Of a DNA stretch of 64,000 nt, positions 3,811 to 31,952 are shown in pieces; position 1 is the stretch's first letter, and the number at the start of each line of letters is the position of its first letter. The DNA comes from Botryosphaeria dothidea (Eukaryota > Ascomycota > Dothideomycetes > Botryosphaeriales > Botryosphaeriaceae). The translations under genes and the position numbers were made by a program. Below the pieces are notes generated by a model, which saw only the letters and a list, made by a program, of their open reading frames with translations, did no database searches and was not told the DNA's origin. Location: positions 2,604,001-2,668,000 of the forward strand of contig WWBZ02000033.1 in NCBI GenBank assembly GCA_011503125.2. The letters are read 5' to 3'.

Positions 3811-3901
3811 TGCTCCCACTGAGATTTGAACTCAGGACCTCGGCATGACTGGCGAAGGACCAGATACTAGTGCCGCGCTCTACCAACTGAGCCATAGGAG
3901 C
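3811..3901 (-). tRNA. tRNA-Thr(AGU) with canonical 18-nt intron
   Basis: On the minus strand, 91 nt fold into a complete cloverleaf. Acceptor stem GCTCCTA pairs with TGGGAGC, with A73. The D-stem is GCTC/GAGC with GG in the loop. The anticodon stem is CGGCA/TGCCG and the T-arm CTGAG-TTCAAAT-CTCAG. The anticodon loop reads CT-AGT-A, followed by 18 nt (plus-strand 3847-3864) before base 38. This is the usual position of nuclear tRNA introns, one base 3' of the anticodon, cut by the tRNA splicing endonuclease. Removing it leaves 73 nt. The anticodon AGU decodes ACN threonine codons after A34 is converted to inosine. It is a normal gene and a useful contrast to the tRNA-Gly at 18314. Confidence 0.96.
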
Positions 3902-14121: not shown

Positions 14122-16654
14122 ATGGTTCCTCAGCCAGCAGTCCCGGAGTAGGTCTCGTATTTATTTTGTCTCCGCATCTGTCTCCTTAGAGAGCTCATGT
14201 ATGCCAGCTGCCAGTGTTGCGCCCACTGTACCCTGTACCTATTCAATTCCTTCTCTACTCGCGTTGGCGCCCTTTTATTTCCTCCTGTGCTCGCCGCGAC
14301 AAGGTGCTGACGTGTCCTCTCTTTGCCTAGGATCTTCGAGGATGAAATCCAGACCGTTGTCGACGCCCGCACAGAAACTCTCCAGTCGCTGCGAGAATTA
14401 GGCCCCCCGGATCTCGTGCATTTGGTAAAGCAACCGAAAGGCACAACAAACAAGGTGGGTAGGGTCGTGGCACACTTGGCTTGGAGAGGCAATGGAGGAG
14501 AACCCTTCTGATACTTTGGTAGATCGGCGTGTACCACCATGTGACAGGCGTCGACGCATCCTCATCCGCCAGTCTAGCCGCTTACATCAATACTCTTACC
14601 TACAATCCGAATGACAAGACTAACAAAGTCGTTTCTGGCCTATACTGGTAAGACTTAGATGGGAAACGCGGTCGTCATTGCTCAGGATCTGGCTGATGTG
14701 TCTAGCTGCTACAATGCCTTCTCAAGACTGGACATGCGCGTGCAGGTAGCAATTCCAGGAACTGTCGAAAGCTACTGCATTGACGAACGTGGCGAGAAAC
14801 GGGTTGCCTCAGACGAGTTGTGGCTTGAGACTTATCTCTGCAGTGTCTTGCGCGCCTACTCCTACGCAGATGACGGGTCGGGCGATACGATCAAAAAGAT
14901 AGTCGGCGTGCGGAGGTTCAATCCCATCACAACCACCGAATCGGAGCACAAGTTCCTGGATGCCGCCGAACGCCTGTTTTTCAATGGCTGGCAACTTGGC
15001 TCCGACCCCGAAATTCAGGTTCCTAATTTGGTCTCCAACCACCTGACCACCGGACTCCTGAATTATATCCATACGACTGGCCGCTATGCATCCGGCATCA
15101 ACCTGTTTGAGAAGCTGCGTACACGAGACCCCGAGATCGCCTCGCTACTCTCTCGCGTGTACATTTCCGCAGATGAGGAAGTCAAGGCGGTGAGATTGCT
15201 CCACGACGCTATCCAGGAACTTCCCATGGATTATTCTCTCCTTGACTGCCAGGCTGAGTTCTTGAACCGGAAAGGCCACCCGGAATTAGCGCTGGAGATC
15301 GCGAAGAGGAGCGTCATTTCTGCCCCTAGCGAGTTCGGTACATGGGCAAGATTAGCTGAGATCTACGTCAGTCTTGAGCAGTGGGACATGGCACTCTTGA
15401 CGCTCAACTCTTGTCCCATGTTTACGTACCAAGACAAGGATGCCCCTCGTATGCCGGAGCCGCTTCGTGTCTCCCTTCCCGTAATGACCGAAAGTGTTTG
15501 CGACGAAATCGACGACAGCGCAGGTGTGTCTGATGTGGACATGGTGCATCCGACTCTGCGCAAGCTGCACGCAGCTGGCTTCAAGGGTACATTCCTGAAA
15601 GCGTACATGCTACTCACCAAGATCACCAAGAAGATCGGGTGGGATCAGCTACTTAGGATACGAAGCCAGGTCTTCGTTATGGAAGAAGAGTACAGGCATG
15701 AGAAGCAACATGTGCAACCGCCTAGCCGTAATGCCAGCACAAGCGCTATCCGTTCGCCAAGCCCGCGGCCTAATGGCCACGGCGAAGTTGAGACGGTCAG
15801 CGAGAATGGTGAATCATCTAAGACGGACGGAGAGACCAACAATGAGACCAACAACGAGACCAACAACGAGACCAACAATGAGACCAACAACGAGACCAAC
15901 AACGAGACCAACAACGAGATCAACAACGAGATCAACAACGAGATCAACAACGAGACCAATAACGGGAACGAAAACGAGAACGTTGATGCAGGTGACTCTG
16001 TGGAAAGGCCAGCAACGACTGTTGCTTCAGAGGAGGTCAAAGCTGGAAGCGATGAACCGGACCCTTCACACCAATCATACACCCAGTTCCAGAATAAGCG
16101 CCTCTGCGAGCGCTGGTTGGACAATCTCTTCATGGTCCTGTACGAAGATTTGCGAGTATACACAATCTGGCGCACAGAGATGGCTCAATACCGTCAACAA
16201 CAACTGGTCTACAAGAAGCATGCCGAAGAATGGGAGATCCTTGGAGAGCTCGCGGAGCGACTGCACCATTTTGACGAAGGCATCGAGGCATATCAAAATT
16301 GTCTTAGCCTCCGCTTCTCTCCTAAAGCAATGCGTGGTTGCCTCAAGCTGTATGAGCAAACTGCAGACGTGAGAGCCATGCTCGGAGCACTCATCCGCCT
16401 GGTGTGTTGGCAGTATAGGTGGTATTCAGAGGTAAGTCTCAGTTGTAAGAGCTTGGAAATCATGCCTCGAACGCTAATGAGTGGAACAGTTCTCTCCCCC
16501 ATTACTCTTCACCATCCGTAGGCTCATAGAAGAAGAGGGTACTCTCAAGGTCCGCAGCATAATTCAGGGAACAAGCCTTCCGCAGCATGTTCTGGAGCTT
16601 ACGCACCAATACACGGCCCTGGTGGCCTCCTTCCGAAACCCTGGGTCGGAGTAA
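14122..16654 (+). CDS. BUD7: Chs5/Arf1-binding protein (ChAPs family, Bud7/Bch1-like exomer subunit)
   Basis: Exomer subunits bind Chs5 and Arf1 at the trans-Golgi and sort chosen cargo, such as chitin synthase 3, to the plasma membrane. There are five exons: 14122-14147, 14331-14454, 14523-14647, 14706-16431 and 16490-16654, encoding 721 aa, close to yeast Bch1/Bud7 length. Family segments seen are IGVYHHVTGVDASSSASLAA, RVQVAIPGTVESYC, DERGEK, LETYLCSV and LRAYSYADDGSGD, followed by TPR-like repeats from about residue 240. Exon 1 carries only 26 nt. The join at 14647/14706 gives Tyr-Cys-Cys-Tyr where a Trp might be expected. Between about residues 465 and 510 lies an Asn/Glu/Thr tandem repeat that is absent from ordinary family members (see repeat at 15832). 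It shares an upstream region with HIR3. Confidence 0.88.
15832..15963 (+). repeat. Coding minisatellite, 11 units of 12 bp
   Basis: Eleven tandem units of gagaccaacaay lie inside the ChAPs gene: seven read Glu-Thr-Asn-Asn, three read Glu-Ile-Asn-Asn (acc to atc change), and one more reads Glu-Thr-Asn-Asn. The near identity of the units, with a block of one variant, points to recent unequal exchange or slippage. Because the unit is 12 bp, length changes keep frame. The encoded segment is polar and most likely an unstructured linker between TPR-like regions. Confidence 0.95.
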
Positions 16655-17973: not shown

Positions 17974-18313
17974 TCGTCTACGGGGGATACTGCTTGATTA
18001 AGGCCATGATGAGGAATTGAAGACTTCATTGGGACTGCTTTGTTACGAAAACCAAATAAGATTTAAGCCCGGTCTCTGCTTCAGGTTCCTCTGAATCAGT
18101 GCTTGAAGTCATTGAGGCCGACTGTCTATAACAGCAACCTCTTAGGAAAAGGTCGGCCATGTTCCAGCGTCCTTAAGCTCCATGATCTGCCAGCATTGTA
18201 TGCCTACTGTATTGTACAATGAAAAAGAAAAGAAAAAGGGATGTTAGAGGGACGTGGACGGGAGCTGAAGTCAAGACAAAATCAAACAATAAAAAGGTCA
18301 AAAATAATTCCAC
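17974..18313. other. Short intergenic region between SEC11 and the split tRNA-Gly
   Basis: 340 bp, AT-rich. It contains the Sec11 3' UTR and, on the minus strand, the 3' flank of the split tRNA-Gly with two short T runs. No gene is recognised. Confidence 0.5.
18300..18304 (-). terminator. Candidate Pol III terminator of the split tRNA-Gly
   Basis: On the minus strand a TTTTT lies ten nt beyond the discriminator base of the tRNA-Gly. A second T5 follows at 18291-18295. Runs of at least five T right after a tRNA are the normal RNA polymerase III stop. Their presence suggests the locus descends from, or still is, a Pol III gene. Confidence 0.55.
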
Positions 18314-18333
18314 TGCGGGAGGCAAGATTCGAA

Positions 18334-18392
18334 CTGTTCCGGTTTCCAATCAGTTATACGATACCTCTTATTCGTGGGTCAGTTTGCCTTAC
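18334..18392 (-). other. tRNA-Gly intron 2 (59 nt, spliceosomal-type, before T-loop)
   Basis: The intron starts GTAAGG and ends GGAACAG, with ACTGAT (branch A 16 nt from the 3' end) and an upstream ACTGAC. The upstream exon ends GCGAG, again AG|GTAAG. It separates the 5' half of the T-stem from the T-loop. Only its removal brings GCGAG next to TTCGAAT-CTTGC and restores a five-pair T-stem. Because the intron itself ends in AG, the DNA still reads AGTTCGAATCT, close to a B-box. Confidence 0.8.
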
Positions 18393-18430
18393 CTCGCGGT
18401 CTCTGCTTTGGGAAAGCAGCGCCTTAACCT

Positions 18431-18490
18431 CTGCATGGTGAAGAGCACCGTTAGCATCATGTTAGACATGGGAACTGGGAGTCTGCTTAC
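18431..18490 (-). other. tRNA-Gly intron 1 (60 nt, spliceosomal-type, in D-loop)
   Basis: The intron starts GTAAGC, ends CATGCAG, and holds two CTAAC branch-point motifs; the branch A of the second is 20 nt from the 3' end. The upstream exon ends CTAG, giving AG|GTAAG, the standard donor context. It splits the D-loop between G15 and A16. Length and motifs match introns of the protein genes around it (47-75 nt). It shows no resemblance to tRNA-endonuclease introns, which sit after base 37. Confidence 0.8.
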
Positions 18491-18505
18491 CTAGGCCACT
18501 CCCAC

Positions 18506-19285
18506 CAATTTGATTGAAGGGCTCGTTGCTTGTGGAGCTAATAAAGTAATGGGTCGGCTTGCTGGTGACTGGTCATTTGTGATATGCAAGAGGATGTGAT
18601 AGGTGTATGCCAAGAGTTGTGCCCCTGCCAGGGCGCTTGCGTGCAGTTGACATATGCGGCGTGCGTGGAAGGAGGAGATGTGAATGTGCATGTAATCAAC
18701 GGGATTTACGTTGCCAAAGCACGTTTGTTACGTAGGTGCCTGATAGTGGTTCCTTGACTGGAGTGTGGCCGCTCTGGAAACAGATCACTCCTTTCAATGA
18801 TTGGGGGAAAATGTGAGTCTGAGTGTTATTCAGAGGCATGCTGCCGCGGATTGTATTATCGATGGCTGCGAACCCAGGTACAGCTGCACGAATAACTATG
18901 AAGAGCTTTACAGACGAAAATGTGCTCCGCCTACCACGACGGGGTTGTTCGGACGATAACATCCACTACTCCACCTGGTCTGTCCTGTTCTTGAGAAAGA
19001 TCGTATTTCAGTGCCAAAAGTCAGCTGAAAAGGTCAACCGGACTATCAGGCGTCTATGATGTGGCTATGCAGGAACAGGTTATGCAATGCAACTATGTAT
19101 GTACGCCGTTTGCTTCCCTGTTGACAACCCGACGCACCGGATCCACCTCGCTGTCACACCAATGAAGAAACTCAGCCGACATCACTGCTTTCTTTTTCCA
19201 GCAGGATTTAGTATCCCATTAACAAATCCAACGCCATCCATCAGCTCGTGAAATTTCGTCTAAAACATTTGCGTTTGCAGTCAGA
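18506..19285. other. Intergenic region between split tRNA-Gly and TANGO2 gene
   Basis: 780 bp with no recognised protein. It is the upstream side of the split tRNA and the downstream side of the TANGO2 gene, so a read-through TANGO2 transcript would cross it into the tRNA in sense orientation. No other tRNA arm or A-box is evident. Confidence 0.45.
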
Positions 19286-20327
19286 TTACCACCCCTCAAT
19301 CTGGAAATCAAACCTCCTATCCCCTTTCCCTTCCTCCACCGGCTTTCCGTCACCATCATATAGGGTTCTCTCAACGAACGTAACCTCCCCCTCCCGGTCT
19401 ACCAATATGACTGACTGTTTCTGCGTTCCATAAATACCACTGGTTGCGCTCACTGTCTCTACCCCTGTCGCGGCAGCCACAGCATCGGCAGGTTTCTCCG
19501 CCATTTCGACGTCGTGCCCGATGCCGGGAATGAAGATGCTGTTGCGCAGCTGACGCAGGTAGATCTCCCATTGCTCGCCGTTGCGCTGGCGGGGCATCGT
19601 GTCTTTGCTAAGGACGTCGAACAGGCGGCTGAGCAGCTGCTCTTTGGTCTCGGCCGCCGCGACGCTGGCGTCGACGGCGTCGCGTGTGCCGGCCTCGCCC
19701 TGCACGATCTTCGGCCACGACCTGTCGCCGTAGTGCGAGTTGCTGAGGGCGTGCGTCTCACCGGACGCGCTGACAAGCCAGACCAGGCCCTTGACGTCAG
19801 GGGTGCGGTTGGAGATGATGGCAAGGCCTCTTTTCTGGGCGTCGCCGTTTGTTTCGGCGGCGGCGGGGTCGCGCTTTTGTACGACGTCCTGCAGGCAGCC
19901 GCACAGTAGGCTGAAGCCGCCCACATGCTTGAGGGTGCCCTCGTCGACGAGGCGTTGGGCGAAGTCAGCGGTGCCCTCATCGGAGTCCGGCGGGGTGTTC
20001 AGCCAGGCGATGGGGATGGCGCCGCGGCTGCGCTCGTCCTGGATGATGGCGGCGCCCTCCTCGCGGAAGTTGGTCAGCACGGCGATGCGCCCCTGGCGCG
20101 TGATGCCCAGCCAGGTGCCGTGGACGGGCCGGTGCAGGTCATAGCCGCCTAGGACGTACGAATGCGGCTCTGCCCACCACTGGGCGGGTGCGGTGGGGCG
20201 GTGGAGATATTCCTGGGGATAAAGGTCAGTTGATGCGGGGTCTGGGGAAGGGTGGTCTCACATCTCTGTTGTTGAGCAGGATAAATGGATACTGCGGGTG
20301 GGCGGTGGTGATGATGGCGATGCACAT
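19286..20327 (-). CDS. TANGO2/NRDE-family protein
   Basis: Two exons, 20327-20262 and 20212-19286, encode 330 aa. The protein starts MCIAIITTAHPQYPFILLNN and continues across the intron into RDEYLHRPT, the N(N)RDE motif that defines the family. Further conserved parts are WLGITRQGRIAVLTNFRE, RGAIPIAWL and LSNSHYGD. Family members are predicted N-terminal-nucleophile hydrolases with Cys2 as nucleophile after Met removal. Human TANGO2 loss gives a metabolic crisis disease, and the family has been linked to Golgi organisation, mitochondria and haem handling, but the reaction is not settled. The start is secure because Cys must be residue 2 and the NRDE motif is completed only by this splice. It is divergent from the REEP gene. 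Confidence 0.9.
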
Positions 20328-30967: not shown

Positions 30968-31952
30968 GTTGGAGGTTCACAGCGTCTCGGAAGGGCACGC
31001 TTCGTAGGGAGAGAGCGGAGGTTGTTTTGGCAGACGCGTGGGGAGATTTGCAAAGACAGATAGCCGGAGGCCCGTGTGCGAACGTTCAAGGATGGTGCTG
31101 AATGCGAATGGGTTGACGGTACAGCTGCGGCGCTGGGCTGACGTGCGAAACGCGCGACGGCTATGATCGGCGCTGTGCGAGTCCCGTAGTGTTTGGAGAT
31201 GCTTGTCGCGACGCAGCCATGAGAGCGCGCCGGGGCGGGGACAAAGGTACTAGAGCGAGCTCGCGACTTTGGGGCAGGCGCGAGGTACGGGAGCGGTACT
31301 GGCGGGCGCTGGAGTGGTGGTGAGCAGCGATGACGAGAGGCGGCTGTGCGATCGGCCTGGATTGGCAGCATGACAATCATAGAGAGAGGATCATCGTCCT
31401 CGTGCCGTCGTGCGTAGCGCCGCGGCCGCTCGGGACCTTGGCCGCCCCTCTGCTGGCCCCGGCCCGCCTGCTGTGCTGCCTGAGGCCACACCCACCCGCC
31501 ACCTGCAGTGCAGACCGAGCAGAGCAGCCGGACGCATCAGGCGGGTTGCTCAGGCTACTTACGATGACAGGCTCGCGCGAACGGGCCCGAGGTCGGCACG
31601 ACGCATTACTCGATCCAGCGACGCACGCCGGCGTGCTGAGCGAGGGCGGCGGCGCTCCCAATCCGTGCTTAGGAAACGCCGCCGTGTCATTCGCTGGCCT
31701 GCCTGCCGACCAGTCTACCCCACAATCACTCGGTATTCCTTTAGGCCGACGCCCCAGGGCTCGAGCCGCTGCGATAGCCGCATCGGAAAGCTCAGGGAAC
31801 GCCGGGCTAGCTTGCACCAAAACTGCAATATCTTCCTCTTCTCTCTGTAATATATTTGGCCCAAGTGCCGCCTCCACCTCACACAGCTCCTCCGCCTCCA
31901 TCCTACCCTCGATTTCGCCGCATTTCCGCTCGATTGACGCCGCACCGCCACC
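30968..31952. promoter_or_regulatory. Divergent promoter region of Rab-like and CYB2-like genes
   Basis: 985 bp between divergent start codons, GC-rich in the middle. Overlapping open frames on both strands have no family features. The 100 bp before 31953 is C/T-rich, typical of a fungal leader. Confidence 0.5.

Follow-up and report, generated by a model that had tools for sequence, protein, structure and literature searches.

We confirm that the genome of the fungus Botryosphaeria dothidea (assembly GCA_011503125.2) contains a tRNA-Gly(CCC) gene split by two GT-AG segments. The gene lies at 18505-18314 on the minus strand of the window, by which we mean the whole 64,000-nt stretch that was analyzed (positions 2,604,001 to 2,668,000 of contig WWBZ02000033.1). 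It spans 192 nt, of which 73 nt are left once segments of 60 and 59 nt are taken out. Evidence at the level of sequence establishes the split structure, the splice signals, an intact cloverleaf, and a T-run. The most likely reading, and in our judgment a probable one, is that of a Pol III-type tRNA gene whose maturation relies on the spliceosome. That the product is a working nuclear tRNA, with the spliceosome taking the place of the tRNA splicing endonuclease, we regard as evenly poised. To our knowledge, tRNA genes are not known to use the mRNA-splicing machinery, and a spliceosome-matured nuclear tRNA would be the first of its kind.

Structure of the split gene

The exons, introns, and flanking signals are listed in Table 1. 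When joined, the exons form a full cloverleaf that ARAGORN calls as tRNA-Gly(ccc). All 21 stem pairs (7 acceptor, 4 D, 5 anticodon, and 5 T) are standard, including two G-U pairs at 2:71 and 51:63, and the invariant positions T8, A14, G15, G18, G19, A21, T33, and A37 are present together with the T-loop TTCGAAT. The original prediction, made from the letters alone, had described removals of 60 and 59 nt that leave 73 nt with every arm paired and the usual invariant bases; our coordinates, lengths, and features agree with that description.

Table 1. Features of the split tRNA-Gly(CCC) locus, in window coordinates.
Feature	Position	Strand	Description	Basis
Exon 1	18491..18505	-	15 nt; tRNA nt 1-15: acceptor 5' strand, T8, D-stem 5' strand, A14 G15	joined cloverleaf
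Intron 1	18431..18490	-	60 nt; GTAAGC...GCTAAC...GCAG; in the D-loop, after nt 15	
Branch-site motif GCTAAC, intron 1	18450..18455	-	branch A 20 nt from the intron end	
Exon 2	18393..18430	-	38 nt; remaining D-arm, entire anticodon arm with CCC, variable loop, T-stem 5' strand	
Intron 2	18334..18392	-	59 nt; GTAAGG...ACTGAT...ACAG; at the T-stem/T-loop boundary, after nt 53	
Branch-site motif ACTGAT, intron 2	18349..18354	-	branch A 16 nt from the intron end	
Exon 3	18314..18333	-	20 nt; T-loop TTCGAAT, T-stem and acceptor 3' strands, A73	joined cloverleaf
TTTTT, Pol III-type terminator	18300..18304	-	begins at +10 downstream of the tRNA	
Second TTTTT, possible back-up terminator	18291..18295	-		
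TCAATCAAATTG leader	18506..18517	-	weak resemblance to TCAA leaders preceding some other tRNA genes of the genome	

The nearest upstream open reading frame on the same strand (at least 120 amino acids) is at 19286-20257, approximately 780 nt from the split tRNA. Among the protein genes of the window, a ChAPs-domain gene at 14659 encodes a protein 91% identical to one from Diplodia seriata, and an FGGY kinase fragment matches a Botryosphaeria dothidea protein at 100% identity across 99% of the fragment.

Both introns must be removed before ARAGORN recovers the full tRNA. In both of its modes, the program found no tRNA in the genomic 192 nt or in a version lacking intron 1 alone. The version lacking intron 2 alone gave no tRNA in the default mode and, with introns allowed, a poor fit with a 41-nt pseudo-intron. 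Across the whole window, ARAGORN and Rfam (at the gathering threshold) missed the split locus, and the sole tRNA reported was at 3811-3901; invisibility to standard finders had been anticipated from the sequence, and these runs bear it out. Such programs are built for contiguous or anticodon-interrupted genes and may therefore miss similar genes. If its transcript is indeed spliceosome dependent, this tRNA is perhaps one of several that have been missed.

Controls for chance resemblance

We scanned the window on both strands for every single and double set of GT-AG removals (donor GTRNG, acceptor YAG, 45 to 120 nt) and compared the products with a strict template, namely, a class I tRNA that spans the junctions and in which 16 or more of the 21 pairs form. 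The only match among 3,517 window removals was the split locus, which has all 21 pairs. No match occurred among 673,730 removals in 200 dinucleotide-preserving shuffles of the sequence. Judged by ARAGORN alone, which is less strict, two of the 3,517 window removals matched, these being the split locus and a tRNA-Pro(ggg) with two GT-AG segments removed (plus strand, 31143-31382). The latter failed the strict template, and we take it as a chance match.

A wider control covered 344,647 bases of real genome DNA (the window plus fetched loci, with four loci that overlap the split locus excluded), using looser splice sites and at least 17 pairs. Here, 45,026 single and 218,360 double removals yielded two matches: the split locus and a second locus (L063), which proved to be an edge effect on an ordinary contiguous tRNA. 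Thus, no second split tRNA was detected in the 345 kb searched (less than 1% of the genome). Note that the strict template recognized 11 of the 28 tRNA loci supplied to it, because anticodon introns and class II tRNAs were disallowed.

The segments resemble spliceosomal introns

A survey of fungal U3 introns (PMC5832005, in its available text) gives, as intron criteria, a donor near GTRWGT, a YAG acceptor, and an RCTRAY branch site 6 to 36 nt before the intron end. With GTRWG as the donor rule, both segments pass: intron 1 has a GTAAGC donor, a GCTAAC branch site, and a CAG end, and intron 2 has a GTAAGG donor, an ACTGAT branch site, and a CAG end. The final T of the donor consensus is missing at both. 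These rules are selective, being satisfied by 1 of 127,880 window 60-mers and 3 of 127,882 59-mers (4 of 255,762 segments of either length); two of these four segments are introns 1 and 2. The donors, AG ends, and branch-point-like motifs claimed in the original prediction are therefore upheld under fungal spliceosomal rules. So is the claimed similarity in size to introns of adjacent protein genes, in a comparison limited to the two introns of the neighboring FGGY kinase gene (99-100% identical protein), which lie in gaps of 56 and 53 nt and which the lengths of 59 and 60 nt fit.

AG is a usual place for an intron to insert. An exonic AG precedes each intron of the split gene and an AG ends each intron, so the point of insertion could slide by two bases. 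Neither intron has a copy elsewhere in the genome, and each matches itself alone; they are thus not recent copies of a repeated intron. We accordingly rejected an introner-like origin, which would be marked by near-identical intron copies in the genome. By their signals, both segments appear to be ordinary U2-type spliceosomal introns that the spliceosome would remove. Because they resemble those of protein-coding genes, making this tRNA would need the mRNA-splicing machinery.

Transcription signals

The downstream flank carries TTTTT at +10 and again at +19, and TTTT is absent inside the 192 nt. Of the 20-nt stretches on this strand of the window, 1.3% contain TTTTT and 4.3% contain TTTT; in the local intergenic stretch, these shares rise to 4.1% and 14%, respectively. 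A run of T4 or longer lies within 40 nt downstream of 23 of the 27 tRNA genes that we examined from this genome.

The B box (GTTCGAATC) is intact in the DNA across the junction of intron 2 and exon 3, because the AG displaced by intron 2 is made good by an identical one at the intron's own end. The A box keeps its first eight letters and loses its GG, its second half being displaced by intron 1. The TCAATCAA leader is like some other tRNA leaders in the genome; this likeness is weak, because TCAA occurs in 7.8% of 20-nt stretches.

On our reading, the split gene would be transcribed by Pol III. The original prediction had proposed, from the spliceosomal character of the introns, that the gene is possibly transcribed by Pol II. 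We find this less supported, as the T5 runs at +10 and +19, the lack of an internal TTTT, and the intact 3' box are no less compatible with Pol III, for which U6 offers a precedent. U6 is transcribed by Pol III.

Other glycine tRNAs in the genome

A pattern search of the genome (51.7 Mb in 78 contigs) for the 5' half of CCC tRNAs led to C58:1508090-1508173 (L051:91-174). There, ARAGORN, with introns allowed, calls a canonical tRNA-Gly(CCC) whose anticodon loop holds an intron of the ordinary kind; this tRNA has one BLAST match in the genome. The genome further has a tRNA-Gly(UCC), likewise with an anticodon intron (L067). GGG is thus readable without the split gene, and the absence of another GGG-reading tRNA, which the original prediction had put forward as support for function, does not hold.

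No further copy of the split gene was recovered. Among 52 matches to a pattern spanning the A box to CCC (the 5' half), that at C58:1508097 corresponds to the canonical tRNA-Gly(CCC). ARAGORN found no further tRNA-Gly(CCC) in 30 of the 52 loci (L021-L050), reporting there only a neighboring tRNA-Ser (in L025); another 21 matches, three of them with all four D-stem pairs, lie outside this ARAGORN count. A contiguous pattern from CCC to the B box gave 17 matches, none of whose loci contained an ARAGORN tRNA. BLAST revealed no contiguous close paralogue of the joined tRNA, returning only the window's own exon 2 and an edge match. Nor did we find a second haplotype or duplicate of the split locus, which has a single 100% match in the assembly. 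A genome-wide tRNA family search, in which 63 of 1,497 candidates were scored, returned at least 61 matches; the window tRNA at 3811 is not among the matches listed. Exact exon 2 patterns had no matches in bacterial and archaeal genome contigs and none in viral contigs, which argues only against a prokaryotic or viral source with those letters.

The body of the split tRNA is no nearer to the glycine tRNAs than to tRNA-Val(UAC), and identity figures assign it to no family. It shares 43 of 70 aligned letters with Gly(CCC), 48 of 66 with Gly(UCC), 43 of 71 with Gly(GCC), and 51 of 70 with Val(UAC). By comparison, each pair of the three glycine tRNAs has 49-51 of 70-71 letters in common. Pair 2:71, which in other species contributes to glycine identity, is U-G in the split tRNA versus C-G in the three glycine tRNAs.

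The searches yielded several side observations. Many of the fetched tRNA genes (L067, L075-L081) have anticodon introns, some of them of unusual length. ARAGORN places one of 69 nt in a tRNA-Ser(GCU), another of 47 nt in a tRNA-Gly(GCC), and a third of 66 nt in L080, a locus that it labels Thr but that has the body of Gly(GCC). The canonical tRNA-Gly(CCC), whose anticodon-loop intron is short, was unreported by Rfam even at an E value of 10, though ARAGORN calls a tRNA there. Some regions were seemingly assembled twice (contigs C3/C12, C36/C69, and C36/C78), in that tRNA, U6, and pattern matches recur with the same letters or score at near-equal spacing. Contig C14, with at least 14 tRNA matches in about 118 kb, is probably the mitochondrial genome.

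A working gene or a recently dead one

On the preferred reading, a nuclear gene of tRNA-Gly(CCC) type would have acquired two U2-type introns, in the D-loop after nt 15 and at the T-stem/T-loop boundary after nt 53. Pol III would start about 10 nt upstream of the tRNA and stop at the T5 at +10, and the spliceosome would take out both introns. Folding of the body would have to wait for splicing, as would trimming by RNase P and RNase Z, the addition of CCA, and the reading of GGG.

There are two introns, and both leave a perfect tRNA, which suggests that by the time the second arrived the transcript was already being spliced and put to use. Nothing requires an insertion into a silent gene to be a perfect intron, still less two such insertions; by this argument, splicing of the gene was very likely in place at both gains. 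We considered random substitutions free of constraint after the arrival of the second intron (substitutions only, with indels not counted). The probability that the tRNA and both introns stay intact is 0.67 after 1 change in the 192 nt, 0.20 after 4, 0.09 after 6, 0.036 after 8, and 0.015 after 10. Any unconstrained time has therefore been short, and the gene is either still maintained or died recently.

Recent death is the main rival, and one that we consider rather unlikely. It holds that a gene working and spliced at the time of intron gain has since become silent, its product neither transcribed nor charged. The canonical Gly(CCC) and Gly(UCC) make the gene redundant, which counts against the working reading as well as for a dead gene. 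Death is also favored by the A box broken by intron 1 and by the G-U pairs at 2:71 and 51:63, each explained by a single C-to-T change. Furthermore, insertions in the D- and T-arms of eukaryotic tRNA genes occur mostly in one of many synonymous genes, and these are supposed pseudogenes, according to the available part of PMC4090602. Against this, all 21 pairs, the tested invariant positions, the signals of both introns, and the T-run are intact, and such intactness is improbable past roughly 4% unconstrained substitution (8 changes in 192 nt). The original prediction had offered a gene invaded by introns and now dead as its alternative; the substitution figures leave room for it only if death was recent. 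Further facts weigh against a working gene. Its body is no nearer to the glycine tRNAs than to Val(UAC), and its pair 2:71 is U-G. Exon 1 with a 10-nt leader would come to about 25 nt, a very small size for an uncapped RNA that the spliceosome has to recognize. The genome offers no precedent in its U6 and U3 matches, and the 345 kb searched gave no second split tRNA. Runs of T4 or longer are not rare locally, at the 14% given above.

Spliceosomal introns are found mostly in Pol II transcripts. This would suit a spliced noncoding RNA, perhaps made by Pol II, that has a tRNA-like fold and does no decoding (it might act as a processing signal or as a tRNA-like regulator). The body being no nearer to glycine tRNAs than to Val(UAC), and the coverage of decoding by other genes, would suit it too. 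We nonetheless judge such an RNA improbable, as a full anticodon arm with T33 and A37, a length of 73 nt, A73, and T5 at +10 are traits of a Pol III tRNA gene.

It is very improbable that these are noncanonical introns cut by the tRNA splicing endonuclease. Introns in the D- and T-arms are also found in tRNAs of Cyanidioschyzon and nucleomorphs (PMC4090602, PMC9602550, and PMC3978253, in their available parts), which speaks for this reading. However, the bulge-helix-bulge (two 3-nt bulges with a 4-bp helix between them, at the exon-intron junctions) is absent at both introns of the split gene, with 1-2 of 4 central pairs in any register that keeps the same exons, and full spliceosomal signals at both would then be a coincidence. 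Least probable of all is a chance resemblance or an assembly error: chance is ruled out by the window scan, the shuffles, the real-DNA control, and the splice-rule counts, and the single 100% match of the locus in the assembly speaks against error.

Comparison with known systems

Our reading of the split gene as a spliceosome-matured tRNA gene has its closest parallels in other small structured RNAs. The U6 genes of fission yeast and other fungi have mRNA-type introns (work cited in PMC5832005, in its available text). Like the split tRNA, U6 in those fungi is a small structured RNA cut by an ordinary spliceosomal intron, but it is a component of the spliceosome and not a tRNA. Fungal U3 snoRNA genes have GT-AG introns with RCTRAY branch sites, with two introns in each of four genes, according to the available text of the same survey (PMC5832005). 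The likeness thus extends to the type of intron, to its presence in a structured RNA, and, in some genes, to the number, although U3 is again not a tRNA. In the B. dothidea genome, U6 has at least three matches, full length and with no insertion (47 of 2,779 candidates scored), and at least two U3 matches cover the whole model in 217-218 nt with no insertion (24 of 584 candidates scored). Because these matches are uninterrupted, they provide no in-genome precedent. In lichen fungi, short spliceosomal introns occur in rDNA and their removal is reported (PMC8527467, in the part available). There too, ascomycete introns of the spliceosomal type sit in an RNA gene that Pol II does not transcribe, but the product is Pol I rRNA.

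Among tRNA genes, introns in the D- and T-arms are described for Cyanidioschyzon, nucleomorphs, and archaea (PMC4090602, PMC3978253, PMC9602550, and PMC8450103), and some of these genes have two or three introns (PMC4090602, PMC9602550, and PMC8450103), again on the available parts of these sources. In Cyanidioschyzon and archaea, they have bulge-helix-bulge sites for the tRNA endonuclease, whereas the split tRNA has no such sites. In the Guillardia nucleomorph, the tRNA introns are 3-24 nt long, versus 59 and 60 nt here. The available text of these sources contains no description of the Cyanidioschyzon, nucleomorph, or archaeal introns as GT-AG spliceosomal introns. Eukaryotic tRNA genes are said to be restricted to one intron in the part of PMC8450103 available. 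Canonical eukaryotic introns (at 37/38) also split nuclear tRNA genes and are common among the tRNA genes that we examined in this genome; they differ from the introns of the split tRNA in position, signals, and enzyme.

Implications

In the available text of the published open-licence literature, we saw no mention of a nuclear tRNA gene with spliceosomal introns. Such introns are already known from a Pol III-type RNA gene; here, the gene that has them is one for a tRNA. If the gene is dead, it would still record intron gain in a transcribed tRNA gene. The locus offers a natural experiment on the limits of the spliceosome as regards exon length and the lack of a cap, and genome annotation would need to include a search for tRNAs split by GT-AG introns. 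If the preferred reading is true, Pol III-type transcripts besides U6 can be spliced, the substrates of the spliceosome would extend to tRNA, and decoding capacity would be coupled to mRNA splicing.
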